Part shown: positions 32,721-49,259 of the stretch, piece by piece
Numbering within the stretch: position 1 is the stretch's first letter
Layout: each line of letters opens with the position of its first letter
Assembly (NCBI RefSeq): GCF_029194005.1
Contig: NZ_JARFVA010000006.1
Coordinates: forward strand, 1-64,000
DNA length: 64,000 nt
Direction: 5' to 3'
DNA from: Flagellimonas okinawensis
GTDB lineage: Bacteria > Bacteroidota > Bacteroidia > Flavobacteriales > Flavobacteriaceae
Made by a program: the position numbers and the translations under genes
The notes under the pieces: generated by a model
Database searches by the model: none
What the model was told of the DNA's origin: nothing
What the model saw: only the letters and a program-made list of their open reading frames with translations

Positions 32721-33767
32721 TTAAGGACTTGTCTCCTTTAACGGTAACAATTCTATTGCCAATTGCAGTACCTCAACTATATTGTAATCGAAGCCGTTTA
32801 CATGAAGGGGCGGCTCCACGTCCTCCTGTAGACAGGTAACGCCCAACAACAGCAGTGACCTTGCTTTGCACAGCATCTCGAAGCTGTTGTCGAATTCAAG
32901 CCTGCGCACATAGGGCTCCGCTGTTGTACGATGTGTATTGGGCGTTTCCAAATCTAGTTCTTCCTTATGATTGAAAATGCCATTATCGATATTACGTTTG
33001 AATATGGAAAGCTCCCGATGGAACAGGGTCTTTATGTCCTTGGTGAACAATGACAATTTTTGGGACAGCTGTTCCAGTTCATTTTTGGTAATTGTGTAGC
33101 TATGAGTATAGCGGGCAGATGAATAGGCATCCTCCAATAGGTCGAGCAATTTACTGTCCATATCGGATTCCATTTGGAACGTGCCACCGAGCTTGTCCAA
33201 CATTTTCAATACATAGCCTTGATGGTTCTTGATGCTATGGCATATCTTTATCCTCCCGCAGATGAAACGTTCCAATATCCTATAGCCCTGTTCAAAGGTC
33301 TGGTGCAGCATAAAGGCACTCTGGGGAAGGTTTCCCAATTCCCTAAAATAACTGGCTCCCTTCCTAAAGGATTTCATTCGGGCCATGTTCCGTTTGAATT
33401 CCCTTTTGGCCGTTTCGTGAAGCTTGGTCGGCTCCATGTCAGGAAGGATTATTGGGGAGTTGCCCCCTTCATTTTTGTACACAATGCTGTCCCTATTGCA
33501 GTTGTTCAAAAAGTACAAGTTGCCCTCTTGGGCTTCCTTTCGTGCATAATTGGTTGCAAAGACACTGTAGCCAACATCGGGGTAAGGTATCATTATGGCA
33601 TCTATAACGGGCCGAACCTGTTCGGGAAAGTCCCTTTGGGACGGTCTTGCCAGAATGTCCAGCCGATGTTTAAACACATGCCCATCCCCACCCCTGTTCA
33701 GGTGGATGCAGTCAATTTCCAGCTCATGGGTTATTTTGTCGATGATGAGTCGGTCTGTTGTTTTCAT
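32721..33767 (-). CDS. HEPN-domain protein
   Basis: A 348-aa protein. A HEPN helical domain occupies about residues 125-200 (ASYFRELGNLPQSAFMLHQTFEQGYRILERFICGR is the characteristic region). It includes R172-x4-H177 (RIKICH), which fits the RX4-6H motif of HEPN RNases. The N-terminal 120 residues and the C-terminal helical third are unassigned. Similar proteins recur beside integrases in Bacteroidota elements. Whether it is an active RNase toxin is open. Confidence 0.65.
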   Translation of the reverse strand: MKTTDRLIIDKITHELEIDCIHLNRGGDGHVFKHRLDILARPSQRDFPEQVRPVIDAIMIPYPDVGYSVFATNYARKEAQEGNLYFLNNCNRDSIVYKNEGGNSPIILPDMEPTKLHETAKREFKRNMARMKSFRKGASYFRELGNLPQSAFMLHQTFEQGYRILERFICGRIKICHSIKNHQGYVLKMLDKLGGTFQMESDMDSKLLDLLEDAYSSARYTHSYTITKNELEQLSQKLSLFTKDIKTLFHRELSIFKRNIDNGIFNHKEELDLETPNTHRTTAEPYVRRLEFDNSFEMLCKARSLLLLGVTCLQEDVEPPLHVNGFDYNIVEVLQLAIELLPLKETSP

Positions 33768-36139: not shown

Positions 36140-36160
36140 GTTGTGACCTATTTCTAGGTT

Positions 36161-36185
36161 CGTCGGGGTGGCAGGATTTAAACTC
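36161..36185 (-). other. att-like remnant resembling a tRNA 3' end
   Basis: On the - strand the sequence reads AAATCCTGCCACCCCGACG, like the T-arm and acceptor end of a tRNA gene. The sequence to its right does not fold into the rest of a tRNA, because the 5' half of the T stem is missing. Integrative elements often use tRNA 3' ends. The position close to an integrase supports a core attachment site. Confidence 0.5.
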
Positions 36186-36321
36186 CAAAACCAATCCGTT
36201 CTATACCAGTATTTTAAGTCTTAATTTTCGTAAATAGGACATCAATTAAGACATCAACGAGAGCGTTTTACGCTTTCTATAGTACAAATTTAGCCAAATG
36301 ATTTCAAATAATATCATATGG

Positions 36322-37884
36322 CTATTTTTTGTTCGGCAGTTCCGCTGCGTTCTTACCTTTCATTCTACCACCGACCAAATCTCCCAAGAATTTTGTAAAT
36401 GGCGCTATATTCTGCCTTACACTGGCCTCTTCCAATGCTTGCATATATTCATCGCGCTTTTCCACGGGAATTACGGTCCACGGATAGCCTCCGGAGGCTA
36501 GCATGGCGTTCATAAGAAATCTGCCCATACGACCGTTACCATCCATATACGGGTGGATAAAAACAAAGACAAAGTGGCCCAGTACGGCACGTACGGAAGC
36601 CTCAGGCTCTTCCTCCAGCAATTCAAATAGGATGGGCATGGCATCGCGCATGGCATCCACATTTAGGGGAACGTGTTTGGAATTACCGATGTACACCTGG
36701 TTATTGCGGTAACCGGAAAGGTCGGAAGCCTTCAACAGGCCTGCCACCACACTTGGGTCGAACAACTGCCTGTACCATGCGGCATGGTCTTTATCGATTT
36801 GTGTTCCCGAATTTGCTCCTTCCAATATGGCTTTGATGCTCTGCTTTACGGATTGGAAAGCCTGATAATACCCTCGGGCTGCCATGGCATCCCTTTGTTT
36901 CCTATCCCCTTCATTTTCCTCGGTGTCCCATTCCCCTGAACTCACTTTTTGAATCAACTCAGGCGTCACCCGATAACGTTCAATGGACAGTGAATGATAG
37001 GCATCCGTTATGTATATATCGTCCACGTCCTTCATATAAGATTCGTGGTCGGTCTGTATGCCGAGGGCTTTCGGGAAATTGGCCATTACTGCTTCACGCA
37101 TCTGCTGCCATATAAGGCGTATGCGATTAGCATAGGGAGAACGTTCCCTTGCCGACAATTTTAATTCCAACCTGGTATCAAAGGGGTCTTCCTCCCGGAT
37201 GTCATAATCAGCCTGTTTGAAGGTTTCCATAATCTGGTCGGCTATTCTGTCACGTTGAATGTTACGAAAAGCCCCGGCCAATCGGCCAGCCAAGGTGGTA
37301 TGGCCATTTTCCAGTAGTATGGGCAGCAATTCCGAAGCATCCCGAATCAGGGACAATGTGGTACGGGCATCGATGGCATTACTTGTATATACTGTTGCTC
37401 CTGCATAAATCAGGGAGGCCTGTAAATTATACATGCGGATGCCTTCTTCTACTAATGTCTGTTCTGAAGGAGGGATATCGGTTTTCAGATTGAACAGGGA
37501 GGTGTTATGTGGCAATGGCGTAGGTTTGTTGTTGCCCTTGGGCGACCGTATAAGCAATTGCTGCGGTACCGATCGGTTTCCGGCATGAAATAACAAAGAT
37601 TGGTCTGCCGAAAGCGACCAATCGTCTCCATATTTTCGGTTAAGAAACCGTGCTATAAATTCCCAATATGAGCTATACCAGGCTGTGGTCTCACCATCTT
37701 TCCCGTTGGGGTCTGTGGCAATATACCATCCTTTAGTGACTTCCTTTAAAAAGCCGTTCTTGACAAGTAGTTGACGGTGCTTTACATTCGGGATATCATC
37801 AGTATGAATTCCTACTATACCTTGGTCTTGTATTCCTTTCAGAAAGGTAAGGGCCTCTGCGAATCTTTCCCTTGGAGTTGCCAT
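36322..37884 (-). CDS. Fic-family protein with an N-terminal AbiEi-like winged helix
   Basis: A 520-aa protein. Residues 1-60 look like the AbiEi-type antitoxin winged HTH (VKHRQLLVKNGFLKEVTKGWYIATDP). The Fic domain lies in the C-terminal third, with the full catalytic motif HPYMDGNGRMGR at 444-455. An inhibitory-helix-like S298-x3-E302 is followed by R instead of the usual G/N. Fic enzymes AMPylate protein targets using ATP. Fusing the DNA-binding half of an abortive-infection antitoxin to a Fic enzyme suggests a self-regulating toxin-antitoxin-like protein. A ladder of palindromes lies just upstream. Confidence 0.85.
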   Translation of the reverse strand: MATPRERFAEALTFLKGIQDQGIVGIHTDDIPNVKHRQLLVKNGFLKEVTKGWYIATDPNGKDGETTAWYSSYWEFIARFLNRKYGDDWSLSADQSLLFHAGNRSVPQQLLIRSPKGNNKPTPLPHNTSLFNLKTDIPPSEQTLVEEGIRMYNLQASLIYAGATVYTSNAIDARTTLSLIRDASELLPILLENGHTTLAGRLAGAFRNIQRDRIADQIMETFKQADYDIREEDPFDTRLELKLSARERSPYANRIRLIWQQMREAVMANFPKALGIQTDHESYMKDVDDIYITDAYHSLSIERYRVTPELIQKVSSGEWDTEENEGDRKQRDAMAARGYYQAFQSVKQSIKAILEGANSGTQIDKDHAAWYRQLFDPSVVAGLLKASDLSGYRNNQVYIGNSKHVPLNVDAMRDAMPILFELLEEEPEASVRAVLGHFVFVFIHPYMDGNGRMGRFLMNAMLASGGYPWTVIPVEKRDEYMQALEEASVRQNIAPFTKFLGDLVGGRMKGKNAAELPNKK

Positions 37885-37917
37885 GTCGTTGAATTTACTT
37901 TTTTAATCTTTGCTTTC

Positions 37918-38013
37918 GGGCTAAAATTAGCTTTTTCTATCGTGCTAATATTAGCAAAAACAAATGTACTAAAATTAGTAAACATAATCGTGTAAAAATT
38001 AGTAAATGTGCTT
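37918..38013 (-). promoter_or_regulatory. four-site operator ladder upstream of the Fic gene
   Basis: Four 12-bp palindromic or near-palindromic sites lie at 37920-37931 (GCTAAAATTAGC), 37944-37955 (GCTAATATTAGC), 37968-37979 (ACTAAAATTAGT) and 37992-38003 (GTAAAAATTAGT). Their centres are exactly 24 bases apart. The first begins 36 bases from the Fic start codon, and TAATTTTA within it could be the -7 element. Autorepression by the fused winged helix is the simplest reading. Confidence 0.75.
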
Positions 38014-38137
38014 TACTGTATTTTGGAAACACAAAACATAATGGCTCAATTTTGTCAATACATCCCTTCCACGTTTCTTCTTGGAAATGCTCTTTTATAT
38101 TTTACGCTTGATACTTACCATGATTTGAACAATCTTA

Positions 38138-38172
38138 TTTTGTAACATATTCAGGAAATATTTGTTACAAAA
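38138..38172 (-). terminator. hairpin downstream of the tra operon
   Basis: TTTTGTAACA (38138-38147) pairs with TGTTACAAAA (38163-38172) in a perfect 10-bp stem with a 15-base loop. It lies about 25 bases beyond the traN stop. No T run follows, so termination strength is uncertain. Confidence 0.45.
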
Positions 38173-38197: not shown

Positions 38198-38992
38198 TTA
38201 TAACCTAGTCTCCAAAATCACTTTCCTGCTCCCGTTCAGTTCCTTCAGCTCAAGCATCATCTTTTCGTTATCTCCCAAGACGAATTTTGGAAGCACGTAC
38301 ACGAAACGCTGGCTTTGCCCATTGGTAATGGAATATGGTATTTTATGTTTGTAAATAGCCTTTTGCAGTAATCGTTGATAAGAGGCTTTGCGTTTGTTGT
38401 TACCATTGGTACGGTACACATTGAGATAGTCGATTTCAAAATCGATTCCGGATTTGTTCCTGACCTCTATGACCAGATACACTTCTGAAACGTCATTGGC
38501 CATTTTCTGCAACTGTAACCGGATTCCTTTTTTGCGTTTTACGGCAATGGTTTCAGAACCGGATCTGAGCAAATATTCACTTGCCCTTTCAAAATAAGCG
38601 GTTCTGTCCTTATTGGAAGTGGTGTTTTCAGCTTTGGATATTTCCATTACGGGACTTTCATTGCCGATGCTTTCATCTTTATAGATGAAGTAGTTCAGCT
38701 TGGGGAGTTTGTCGGAATACTTCAAAATATAGGAATATACCTTTCCGTCACTGGTAACGGCCAAAAGATTGCTTTCGGTTCCTGGTTTAGCCTGTAACAG
38801 CCCGAAATACTGTTCCTTTTCACGATTGTAGGTAAACACAAAATGTGAAGCTCCCGTAATACCTTGTCGAATAGGATTAGGAAAGAACAAAGCAACGTTC
38901 TTTTGGTCATTGGCATAAATGGTGTCCAATGATTTTTGTGCCTGTATGGACATTGTAAAGGTCAATAGCAGTAATGTAAGATATGTTTTCAT
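38198..38992 (-). CDS. traN: conjugative transposon protein TraN (DUF4138)
   Basis: A 264-aa periplasmic protein with a signal peptide (MKTYLTLLLLTFTMSIQAQ). It follows the TraN/DUF4138 pattern, including VSEVYLVIEVRNKSGIDFEIDYLNVYR and KHKIPYSITNGQSQRFVYVLPKF. TraN is a VirB9-like core component of the Bacteroidota conjugation channel. It is the last gene of the operon. traO, traP and traQ do not follow. Confidence 0.85.
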   Translation of the reverse strand: MKTYLTLLLLTFTMSIQAQKSLDTIYANDQKNVALFFPNPIRQGITGASHFVFTYNREKEQYFGLLQAKPGTESNLLAVTSDGKVYSYILKYSDKLPKLNYFIYKDESIGNESPVMEISKAENTTSNKDRTAYFERASEYLLRSGSETIAVKRKKGIRLQLQKMANDVSEVYLVIEVRNKSGIDFEIDYLNVYRTNGNNKRKASYQRLLQKAIYKHKIPYSITNGQSQRFVYVLPKFVLGDNEKMMLELKELNGSRKVILETRL

Positions 38993-46006: not shown

Positions 46007-46468
46007 TCATTGTGAATTTTGCTTTAATTGGATTAATTTTTTTCCATTAAAATGTCCAATGTAGAAACCTTTTCGACCAACAATTACCATCAAAAGAAAA
46101 TCCTCATTAATCAAGTTTTTTTTGAATTGATTTTTTATCATTTTTATATCTGTACTTGACGGAGTAGGATAGTCTTCGGGATGGGTATGCCATTCGCCAA
46201 TATAAATGGTTTTACCAAGACTGTTTAAAAATTCATAATTAATGAATAATTGTGCTGATTTTTTATCTCTATGAAAGCTATATCTATAGCTCTTATCAAA
46301 TAATGTGGGTGTAGTGGCCTTTGTAACAAGAATTTTATTGTTTTCCAAGCGTTTTCCTAAGAGTATGCCCCCCTTCTCATGTTTATTGCCAGTTTGTTTA
46401 AAATGACTGAATACATTCAGAACTCCTTCATCAAAAATCACATTAATATTTACATCGGAATATGTCAT
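46007..46468 (-). CDS. cap3: CBASS Cap3: JAB/JAMM-type deconjugase
   Basis: A 153-aa metalloprotease-like protein with the complete JAMM motif: E31 (HEKGGIL) and H94-x-H96-x7-S104-x2-D107 (HTHPEDYPTPSSTD). In type II CBASS, Cap3 removes the CD-NTase from conjugated targets, opposing Cap2. It is the last gene of the operon and overlaps cap2 by 4 bases. Confidence 0.88.
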   Translation of the reverse strand: MTYSDVNINVIFDEGVLNVFSHFKQTGNKHEKGGILLGKRLENNKILVTKATTPTLFDKSYRYSFHRDKKSAQLFINYEFLNSLGKTIYIGEWHTHPEDYPTPSSTDIKMIKNQFKKNLINEDFLLMVIVGRKGFYIGHFNGKKLIQLKQNSQ

Positions 46469-48261
46469 AAAGTGTTATTGATTAGGGAATATTTCTCGTA
46501 TGAATCTTTTGCTAAGGTCACATTTAGTTTTTTTGCTATATCTATATCGCCAATCCAAGAATAGAACAGGCTCTGATTATTGCTATTTTCGATGACTTCA
46601 ACTATTTTGAGATAAGCAGCGGATAAAAAAAGGGACAAATGAGCAGATGAATATGGAGAATAAGTAGCCTGACAACCACTTTCTTTAAGCATGAATAAAT
46701 CTCTTTTTTTCTCATACTCTTCGGGTGAAATTATAGAAAATCTGTATTTGTAGATATCAGAAAATAAGTCATCCAACTTGGGGAGATTTTCTGGATGGAG
46801 GTAGAGTAATTGAGCACCAATCAAGTAGGGTTCGACCCAAAGAATAAAAACAGGTTTTTTTAACTCGCCCTTTTGTAACTCTGTTATAAACCATTTTTCA
46901 AGATTCAGTTTTCCCAAACATAGAAACATATAATCCTGTGCATTGACTTTTCGTTTATTTTGGTTATAAAAATCAAATATTGACGATTCACTAAATTGAA
47001 TCTTCTGACTTGGAAGTTTATGTTTTAAGTAGGTTTTTAATGCAAGTGCTTTGTTTTGATTTAAGTAGTGAAACCCTAGTAAATGGCGTTTAATGTTTTC
47101 TGAACTTAGTTTGTCATTATCAATAAGGGCAAATTCAGGGTTATTAAGATTATTAAGAAGACCCACTAGATTTGAGCCAACACTCCCAATACCAGCTACA
47201 AGAAACTTATAGTTCTTTGGTGTTTGGACTTCAGATGCAGTTCTTCTAATTAATCTTTGTTCACTAAGGCTGTCAGAAGAGAAACGTTTAACATTCTTTT
47301 TATGACCAGGTAAACCTTTATTGAACGTAATATTATAAGGTGTTAGTTTGCTCTGACGGAATCCTTTTATTTTAAAGTCTATGTCGGGATAGCTCCATCC
47401 AAAATATTTTTTTTCATCATTGATAGTCTTTCCAAAGACTAAAATTCTAACTGGACTTTTATTAAAGTAATCTTTAAAGTTTTTTTGATTCTCTTCCTTA
47501 ATAAATTCAAGACTTTCAAAGCAACTAATGGTAAAAGGCGGTCTAGTAAGTCGTGTTTCATCCTTAACAAAAAACACCTCATATTCTTTTGTAGAGTAAT
47601 CTTGACTTTCAAAATACTGTTGGTAAGGTTGAATTAAATCTTCTTCTTTATTGTAAAGGATGCCAGCTAATGTTTTGTCTTTTTTTGATGACTTAATACT
47701 ATAAGTGAGTAAGTGTAGAGAATTATAGTTTTTTGGTTCTTTACCTATAACGGAATAAATAGATTCACTTAGTAATTTATCTTTATGATTTCCCGATGTA
47801 TTCCAATAAGCCACGAATTCATCTTCAAAATCTTCAAAATTTTCACCTTTCAAACCTTCAATCAAAGTTTTTTTTGCTTTACTAAGTTGGTCTATTAGAA
47901 TTCCCGTAGGGTTTGATTGGTCTACAATTACAAATTCATCGTATACACATACATCGTTTCTCAAAAATGAAGAATGAGGTATGTATCCTAATTTCTCAAA
48001 ATCATTTTTATCGTAATATATTTTTGCAGGCTCTAATGGAAATAATGAACTTAAAGCAATATACATGGTAAGTTCATCAATAATCCATACTGATTTTACA
48101 TTGTCATATAATCCGGTTTTTACCTCCCAGACTTCACAATAATCACCGGACTCTAGAAAGTTAGCATCTTTCGGATTGTCAAGTACAGTGATTTCGTCAT
48201 CGCTGATGCTTGCTAACTTTGTATATGCATCTTTTCGTATTTGCTCAAAACAATCTGACAT
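46465..48261 (-). CDS. cap2: CBASS Cap2: E1/E2 fusion that conjugates the CD-NTase
   Basis: A 598-aa ubiquitin-transfer-like protein. The N-terminal E2-like domain has candidate catalytic Cys105 (IPHSS...NDVCVYDEF). The C-terminal ThiF/E1 domain carries the adenylation loop AGIGSVGS (residues 356-363) and catalytic Cys530 in ESGCQATYSPY. In characterised type II CBASS systems this enzyme joins the CD-NTase C-terminus to target proteins and primes it. Its start touches the stop of the CD-NTase gene. Confidence 0.88.
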   Translation of the reverse strand: MSDCFEQIRKDAYTKLASISDDEITVLDNPKDANFLESGDYCEVWEVKTGLYDNVKSVWIIDELTMYIALSSLFPLEPAKIYYDKNDFEKLGYIPHSSFLRNDVCVYDEFVIVDQSNPTGILIDQLSKAKKTLIEGLKGENFEDFEDEFVAYWNTSGNHKDKLLSESIYSVIGKEPKNYNSLHLLTYSIKSSKKDKTLAGILYNKEEDLIQPYQQYFESQDYSTKEYEVFFVKDETRLTRPPFTISCFESLEFIKEENQKNFKDYFNKSPVRILVFGKTINDEKKYFGWSYPDIDFKIKGFRQSKLTPYNITFNKGLPGHKKNVKRFSSDSLSEQRLIRRTASEVQTPKNYKFLVAGIGSVGSNLVGLLNNLNNPEFALIDNDKLSSENIKRHLLGFHYLNQNKALALKTYLKHKLPSQKIQFSESSIFDFYNQNKRKVNAQDYMFLCLGKLNLEKWFITELQKGELKKPVFILWVEPYLIGAQLLYLHPENLPKLDDLFSDIYKYRFSIISPEEYEKKRDLFMLKESGCQATYSPYSSAHLSLFLSAAYLKIVEVIENSNNQSLFYSWIGDIDIAKKLNVTLAKDSYEKYSLINNTL

Positions 48262-49259
48262 TAAGCACTTGTAGCATTAACATTAATCACCGCTGGTGCA
48301 GCATATGATTTTGATTCACTTTTAGATGAATCTTCTACATTAGCGCAAGCAAACCTGTCCCCAAGATATTTTTGCCATTTTTTACATCCTTCTTTTGGAT
48401 TGCTATGAGCTATAGCAGCATTACCAGCATCTATAAGCTTAGATAATCTGTCCATAAAATGAGTTTCACTATACTTTTGAAGCAAGTCCTCTCCTTTCTT
48501 TGTTGTAGGCCGCTCACATTTAAAATCATCTTCTAATTCTGATTGAATTGCTTCCAAAGTATCTCTGAAAGAAATATCATCACGGTCATTTGATACATAG
48601 TGATTTGTAGCAAGAATGGCAAATATCAAGCCACTTGGCATTTTTGTGCTAAAGGATTTGTTTTGCTTGTCTCCCCAGGCTTTTAAATAACGAACTAACC
48701 TCTTCAATTGGTCATTTGCCCGGCCATTAAACCATTTATAAAATTCCCTCGGGTCACTATCCGTAAAGCCTTCGGATTTATGCGCAAGCTGCGGAATAGT
48801 TTTTTCGCCGCCTGATTCTTTTTCTTTAAAGTATATGGGTAAGTCAATATTGTGGCCATCAGAATACAAAACACGAATACAAGTATTTTTTTTGATAGCT
48901 CCTTTTGAAGTGTGATCCTTAACGGCATCATAAATCCAATTGTGATAGGTTGTCACTGATTTTCTATTGTCTATTTCATCAATAAAATAAACGCCATCAT
49001 CCAAATCATAAGGGTATAAAGTTTTCTCGTTACCATCATCATCGGTCTCGTATGTTGGAAGAGGATTGACAATTATATGCATCATAAAAGACCCTTGAGC
49101 AGAATATTTAGGTCTGGTCTCATTCTCCTTATTGTTCTTGAAATAGTCTGTTATTTTTTTTCTTAAAGCATCTCTATTTTTCCTAAGCTCATCCTTTTTA
49201 GAAGAATCTAATGAAATAGTCGTATTAAATTCAATGAATTGTTCGTGATTATTTGCCAT
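48261..49259 (-). CDS. CBASS CD-NTase (cGAS/DncV-like nucleotidyltransferase)
   Basis: A 332-aa enzyme that makes a cyclic nucleotide signal on phage infection. The core has GSF at 56-58, the metal-binding pair D85-x-D87 in YPYDLDDGVYF and a likely third Asp, D139 (HNIDLPIY). The flexible tail ends in ...NVNATSA with a terminal Ala, as expected for a Cap2 substrate. It resembles the DncV-like branch by its DDGVYF motif, but the product cannot be deduced. It is flanked by cap15 and cap2. Confidence 0.9.
   Translation of the reverse strand: MANNHEQFIEFNTTISLDSSKKDELRKNRDALRKKITDYFKNNKENETRPKYSAQGSFMMHIIVNPLPTYETDDDGNEKTLYPYDLDDGVYFIDEIDNRKSVTTYHNWIYDAVKDHTSKGAIKKNTCIRVLYSDGHNIDLPIYFKEKESGGEKTIPQLAHKSEGFTDSDPREFYKWFNGRANDQLKRLVRYLKAWGDKQNKSFSTKMPSGLIFAILATNHYVSNDRDDISFRDTLEAIQSELEDDFKCERPTTKKGEDLLQKYSETHFMDRLSKLIDAGNAAIAHSNPKEGCKKWQKYLGDRFACANVEDSSKSESKSYAAPAVINVNATSA

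Follow-up and report, generated by a model that had tools for sequence, protein, structure and literature searches.

A mobile AbiEi-like/Fic fusion gene accompanied by head-to-tail 23-24-bp repeats in Bacteroidota and Pseudomonadota: a probable self-regulated single-protein module

The window, i.e., the whole stretch of 64,000 nucleotides analyzed in this study (Flagellimonas okinawensis, contig NZ_JARFVA010000006.1), contained a gene encoding an AbiEi-like N-terminal half fused to a Fic enzyme, and four head-to-tail 24-bp repeats were found directly upstream of it (Table 1). This ladder was conserved in, and specific to, the AbiEi-Fic family in Bacteroidota and Pseudomonadota, and the gene and its array moved as a unit on ICEs and plasmids. 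Taken together, the gene and ladder probably constitute a mobile single-protein module, in which a self-inhibited Fic enzyme represses its own expression through the AbiEi-like half.

Table 1. Features of the AbiEi-Fic locus and the gene upstream of it (positions in the window)
Feature	Position	Strand	Basis
AbiEi-like/Fic fusion gene, solitary, 520 aa	36322..37884	-	ORF; Pfam Fic E 6e-11, above gathering cut-off
Fic catalytic motif HPYMDGNGRMGR	codons 444-455, 36520..36555	-	sequence, alignment of relatives
Inhibitory-helix motif (S/T)xxxE, SLSIER, with R at the canonical G/N place	codons 298-303, 36976..36993	-	alignment
AbiEi-like N-terminal half, winged helix and NTase-like domain (predicted)	codons 1-229, 37198..37884	-	AF2 model, fold matches
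Predicted winged helix	codons 1-60, 37705..37884	-	block pLDDT 84-91, secondary structure
Four head-to-tail 24-bp units (37983-38006, 37959-37982, 37935-37958, 37911-37934)	37911..38006	-	repeat scoring
TACATTTG in the second unit, matching TAnnTTTG	37961..37968	-	match to consensus
TraN-like conjugation gene, next gene upstream	38198..38992	-	DUF4138 above cut-off; NCBIfam TraN 80.6 bits, below cut-off 164.1

The ladder ended 26 bp ahead of the ATG and sat between the Fic gene and the TraN-like gene. The original prediction had placed four 12-bp palindromes at an exact 24-bp pitch directly upstream of the gene. The pitch was borne out by a period-24 score of 26.1, which was reached by none of 1000 dinucleotide shuffles (largest, 11.1) and, among the 579 tiles of the window, by two overlapping tiles only, both over the ladder. 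The palindromes (centered at 37925.5, 37949.5, 37973.5, and 37997.5) stood only in part, with 10, 12, 10, and 4 palindromic positions of 12: one was perfect, two had a mismatched central pair, and the fourth did not qualify as a palindrome. Four direct repeats describe the ladder better than four palindromes do.

Relatives were obtained from a scan of genome contigs (41 loci, 40 of them related over almost the full length; Bacteroidota) and from a plasmid collection (150 records matched, 75 covered over at least 80%). For each gene, the 330 bp upstream was scored for head-to-tail arrays at each period from 17 to 40 (24 periods). The question of whether homologues carry the repeats, raised with the original prediction, was answered strongly in the affirmative. 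Of the 63 loci of the first set, 62 had their best score at a period of 23 or 24; this set included the window (L001) and the identical L005 and left out L071 and L073 (the same genes as L067 and L066); the exception, L066, was a broken copy. The same held for all 12 loci added from plasmids of Alpha-, Beta-, and Gammaproteobacteria, four of which had gene starts set by hand (L075 and L085 by a narrow margin), and for 16 of 16 testable loci in a later set that was scored before reading (a 17th, L098, had 67 bp of upstream sequence and was untestable). Five loci without a matched N-terminus (L062, L063, L065, L070, and L072) are excluded from these counts. Against shuffled sequences (30 for each locus, with period 24 as the sole period scored), 61 of the 63 loci beat every shuffle; one of the 30 reached the score of L042, and all 30 reached that of L066. 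Weak arrays were found in L042, L023, L075, and L085, and the broken copy L066 had none. Near-copies were common, and a threshold of 88% N-terminal identity left 51 of the 88 usable loci.

Upstream regions of other genes served as controls. A period of 23 or 24 was best in 11 of 179 upstream regions drawn from the same, partly redundant loci (L005-L044); scores exceeded 12 in five of these regions, including one at period 23 (15.6), and repeats as such are thus not unique to the AbiEi-Fic family. For other Fic genes from the genome of the window and related ones (first ATG of the ORF taken, near-duplicates included, and 2 of 30 dropped as they lacked a motif-bearing ORF), 23 or 24 was best in 1 of 28, with a score of 7.0. 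Another of these controls, L128, was best at 22 and scored 11.0 at 23-24.

The arrays contained 2 to 11 units per locus within the scanned 330 bp, and the unit sequences were lineage-specific. Examples from Bacteroidota are TTTACTAATTTTAGTACA... for the clade of the window and TAACAAAGTT... for one other clade; Pseudoalteromonas has repeats of AAACCTATAAATGATATGACATTA, and the units of rhizobial plasmids contain ...AAATTAGTGT.... A second family member in the genome of the window, with 58% identity, shared the 24-bp pitch but not the unit sequences. The pitch was 23 bp, not 24, in L036, L037, L039, L040, L057-L061, L074, L082, L084, L092, and L102, which is the site size of AbiEi.

The orientation of the units was analyzed in 51 loci. 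On average, a unit was 0.74 identical to its closest partner in the same direction and 0.54 to the closest stretch of the array in reverse complement; the control with merely reversed units gave 0.58. Same-direction resemblance exceeded reverse-complement resemblance in 51 of 51 loci. Since the units had been picked for direct similarity, the value of 0.74 is flattered, and the inverted value against the control is the fairer comparison; inverted units did not rise above this control, and L049 alone exceeded it by more than 0.08. Palindromy over 39 loci averaged 0.51 against 0.50 in column-shuffled units, with p at most 0.05 in five loci (L005, L013, L031, L076, and L077), where about two are expected by chance. 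The clearest case was the sequence of the window itself (L005; p 0.000). An inverted or palindromic operator, as originally proposed, was therefore rejected as a conserved element of the family. In eight loci, end units with a poor fit were left out of the palindrome and covariation tests, and the array registers of L057 and L060 were set by a typed motif.

The consensus of the Bacteroidota -7 box is TAnnTTTG. The match to this box inside the second unit suggests that the ladder may overlap the promoter. By raw count, 16 of 39 loci had a match to TAnnTTTG at most 220 bp upstream. A scan for sigma-70 promoters and terminators yielded nothing above chance. Two whole-genome scans for a regulon elsewhere gave 18 matches, ladder included, against 24 for a reversed-pattern control, and 13 matches (four in the ladder) against 12; neither count was conspicuous beside its control.

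The AbiEi-type character of the N-terminal domain, which had been proposed from sequence alone, gained support from the predicted fold, including an NTase-like second domain. Residues 1-245 were modeled with AF2 from 28 sequences (mean pLDDT 73, pTM 0.62), and the winged helix was the part with pLDDT 84-91, with wing strands predicted at 46-50 and 53-56; the helix at about residues 34-42 may be named the recognition helix from the usual winged-helix layout. The top fold match was Rv2827c (1zel; Z 8.8, rmsd 6.5, 225 residues aligned), followed by a mitoribosome chain (Z 7.3, 69 residues) and by AbiEi of S. agalactiae (6y8q; Z 6.9, rmsd 5.7, 164 aligned). Other winged helices and NTases matched single domains at Z 5-6.5, and just two proteins among the 50 matches listed, both of the AbiEi family, spanned both domains. 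The high rmsd values are expected if the two domains are set at a different angle. A Z near 7 alone is weak, and these matches support, rather than prove, an AbiEi fold consisting of a winged helix and an NTase-like domain. No match to an AbiEi model was found in Pfam for 24 full-length members or seven N-terminal halves, nor in NCBIfam for the window protein. The N-terminal half occurred in 79 plasmid records; because 52 of the 60 matches listed lay on Fic family genes and eight on unannotated or hypothetical ones, these 60 included no clear case of a free-standing N-terminal half. Two short genomic copies, L068 and L069, look like truncated members.

Pfam PF02661 identified the C-terminal half as Fic with 43.4 bits (cut-off 24), and the Fic domain was matched in all 24 aligned relatives. 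SoFic and FICD, which are class II Fic proteins, ranked among the top matches to this half, both by fold and by sequence. The full-length model was poor (pLDDT 61); its C-terminal part matched FICD and SoFic at Z 12-14, and 1zel and 6y8q were also matched, at Z 6.2 and 5.5. Class II Fic proteins carry (S/T)xxxE(G/N) ahead of the Fic core, and SLSIE aligned with the place of the FICD glutamate motif. S298 and E302 were invariant in 24 of 24 aligned members, and R303 was present in at least 90%. Directly after the inhibitory glutamate, the clade of the window has R. Several distant Bacteroidota and the five members from Pseudomonadota that were examined (L046-L050) have G in this place, and L035 and L056 have Q and K, respectively. 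As predicted, the catalytic motif was intact: HPYMDGNGRMGR has Y for F and keeps the remaining fixed positions of HPFx[D/E]GNGRxxR, the wording given for the Fic AMP-transferase motif in PMC5675462. We infer that the Fic half is a class-II-like AMP-transferase, the basal activity of which may be low in view of the invariant inhibitory glutamate. Broken copies with various break points were found (L012, L041, L044, L065/L072, L066/L073, and L067/L071), and such varied breakage might fit a costly or toxic gene, or assembly errors.

The gene was solitary, without a recurrent partner gene. No neighbor family occurred in more than four of 37 loci when ATG-initiated ORFs of at least 70 aa were counted in the fetched flanks (some ended by the contig), a count to which a shorter partner is invisible. 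In DNA comparisons of the window with eight of 40 loci, seven shared the gene and ladder and little more (similarity 83.5-90.7%), with similarity stopping at 36162-36320 on one side and 38007-38171 on the other. The eighth, from Allomuricauda aurea (L005), was identical over 6728 bp, including the tra genes, to the end of the compared stretch; on the opposite side, identity stopped at 36157. This identity ends at CCTGCCACCCCGACGAACC (window 36157; L005 6728), which looks like a tRNA 3' end or an attachment core. ARAGORN found no tRNA in the window, and no second copy of CCTGCCACCCCGACGAACC was found in the genome. Past CCTGCCACCCCGACGAACC, a different integrase (48% identical) comes next in L005.

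The distribution of the family was patchy. Relatives were present in 20 of 395 Bacteroidota genomes at E at most 1e-30 and, within the order, in 5 of 395 genomes at E at most 1e-60, the genome of the window being included in both counts; with L049 as the query, they were found in 13 of 398 genomes in the phylum of an Agrobacterium genome. Forty-two of the 79 plasmids with the N-terminal half were typed conjugative. A tra gene was the next gene upstream in the window and in four of 17 annotated plasmid loci (L079, L080, L081, and L084, the first three closely related), an 18th plasmid locus being without annotation; siting beside tra genes is recurrent, not general. Two pattern-based scans of viral contigs found no relative, and phage records matched the Fic part only (four records, 15-16% of the query). 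The ladder DNA used as a query against plasmids gave no match. Additionally, CBASS-like defense genes were observed beyond TraG in the window (46465-49259). One encodes a cyclase of the cGAS type (48261-49259), which scored 225 bits with NCBIfam NF041078 (cut-off 150); the product of the other (46465-48261) is Cap2/ThiF-like and stayed under its cut-offs. For a protein near the integrase (32721-33767), a match to HEPN fell short of the threshold (19.7 bits, cut-off 22).

Concerning the working of the module, the AbiEi-like half would bind its own ladder. Since the units follow each other head-to-tail, one chain may occupy each 23-24-bp unit in the same order, which would place a row of chains over the promoter, and the bound chains would repress it; their loading may be cooperative, as originally suggested from the spacing. 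The Fic half would be restrained by the inhibitory glutamate (SLSIE-R/G), and probably also by low expression. On entry into a repressor-free cell, or upon failure of repression or inhibition, the active Fic enzyme might modify a host protein and slow growth. A one-protein toxin-antitoxin is a hypothesis for the module as a whole, and a role in defense, also raised with the original prediction, is at most conjectural. A bolder version of the toxin-antitoxin hypothesis, which we consider improbable, assigns the antitoxin role to the ladder itself: chains bound head-to-tail would be kept inactive by their arrangement, and autorepression would hold their number near that of the units. Loss of the element would remove the ladder as well, free active Fic, and penalize the cell. 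If true, this would be a one-gene addiction module with an operator array doing the work of an antitoxin.

Several other readings of the same locus were weighed. The least likely of all is that the repeats act as a structured mRNA leader rather than in DNA. The leader of the window does fold better than shuffles (z -3.8), probably because its units are partly palindromic; of 10 other chosen family leaders, however, nine had z above -1 and one -2.1, and an RNA leader was rejected as a feature of the family. It is also unlikely that some other protein encoded by the host element, such as a replication initiator or conjugation regulator, binds the ladder, which would then stand before the Fic gene incidentally. 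Plasmid replication origins typically carry iteron-like direct repeats, and some copies lie near rep/par genes (L048 and L077). However, the ladder accompanies the gene in unrelated chromosome, ICE, and plasmid settings without a widely shared neighbor, is missing upstream of 27 of the 28 other Fic genes, and is rare before other genes.

A less probable reading than the self-repressing module, yet the most serious of its competitors, takes the protein mainly as a transcription factor, the Fic half of which regulates the element, e.g., by adding a modification to a conjugation or replication protein or removing one from it, and is not toxic. The recurrent tra-adjacent siting is in line with it, as is the invariant inhibitory glutamate, with which basal activity may be low. 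This siting is nevertheless that of a minority, and growth-inhibiting Fic toxins also sit there: VbhT and BtrFicT are located directly downstream of conjugation (T4SS) genes, as stated for VbhTA and BtrFicTA in PMC5675462. The autorepressed, self-inhibited Fic module remains our preferred reading.

This module resembles known systems in part. According to PMC7319586, AbiEi and Rv2827c, antitoxins of type IV toxin-antitoxin systems, bind two and four 23-bp inverted repeats, respectively, and each represses its own promoter. The AbiEi-Fic protein shares with them the predicted N-terminal fold and the 23-bp site size, and autorepression, shown for these antitoxins, is proposed here for the fusion. 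Their sites are inverted repeats with 3 or 13 bp separating the two members of a pair, whereas direct repeats abutting at 23-24 bp were found in place of a 23-bp inverted-repeat operator in the AbiEi-Fic family; furthermore, their toxin is a separate DUF1814 (AbiEii) protein, and here a Fic enzyme is on the same chain (same source). CccR of Yersinia pseudotuberculosis offers a working precedent, as this Fic protein AMPylates FtsZ and is the repressor of its own gene (PMC9755527). It likewise combines Fic and a DNA-binding domain on one protein and has the inhibitory motif SxxxEG (S59-ARIEG). In contrast to the AbiEi-Fic protein, its HTH is C-terminal, so that the domain order is reversed between the two, and the passages of PMC9755527 available do not describe it as AbiEi-like; its operator consists of two 10-bp inverted repeats 26 bp apart, unlike the direct repeats before the AbiEi-Fic gene. 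CccR is also secreted by the T6SS (PMC9755527).

FicTA and VbhTA are Fic toxin systems on mobile elements, some directly downstream of conjugation genes, with a separate antitoxin gene according to PMC5675462; no such gene was found among ORFs of at least 70 aa in the 37 loci, and the AbiEi-Fic protein has the inhibitory motif on the same chain. The Fic core with a preceding inhibitory motif is seen in SoFic and FICD (3zcn and 6i7j) as in the AbiEi-Fic protein; neither of the two, to our knowledge, has an AbiEi-like N-terminal half. In the open full-text literature (subscription papers and preprints being outside the scope), we found no description of an AbiEi-Fic fusion or of a 24-bp direct-repeat array before Fic genes among the matches listed, as judged by the title and start of the abstract. 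The joining of a Fic enzyme to an AbiEi-like half that probably regulates its own gene, together with operators arrayed head-to-tail, is probably new. It brings two well-studied parts, AbiEi-type DNA binding and a Fic enzyme, onto one chain with an unusual operator layout, and offers a compact one-gene module for studying how a Fic enzyme stays silent.

The layout was kept over two phyla to about 30% protein identity despite large changes in operator sequence, and the approximately 50 distinct protein-operator pairs form a natural set for studying site choice by winged helices. Array similarity dropped with protein similarity (Spearman 0.52, 51 loci), as expected if array and protein travel together; shared descent alone could yield such co-divergence. 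The change in the units could not be traced to the recognition helix. In 27 loci, the left part of the unit showed a covariation peak at residues 25-36 (partial 0.38), the other unit parts peaking elsewhere, and this peak was absent in 51 loci (0.10 at 23-34; largest value, 0.17 at 221-230). In addition, the betaproteobacterial L085, with about 29% identity to the N-terminal half of the window protein, and the Bacteroidota members L067 and L057 share the unit core TAACAAAGTT or AACAAAGT and resemble each other in the helix region (GV[VI]...[PE]A.R..L). The shared core and helix region are a possible lead toward a recognition code.
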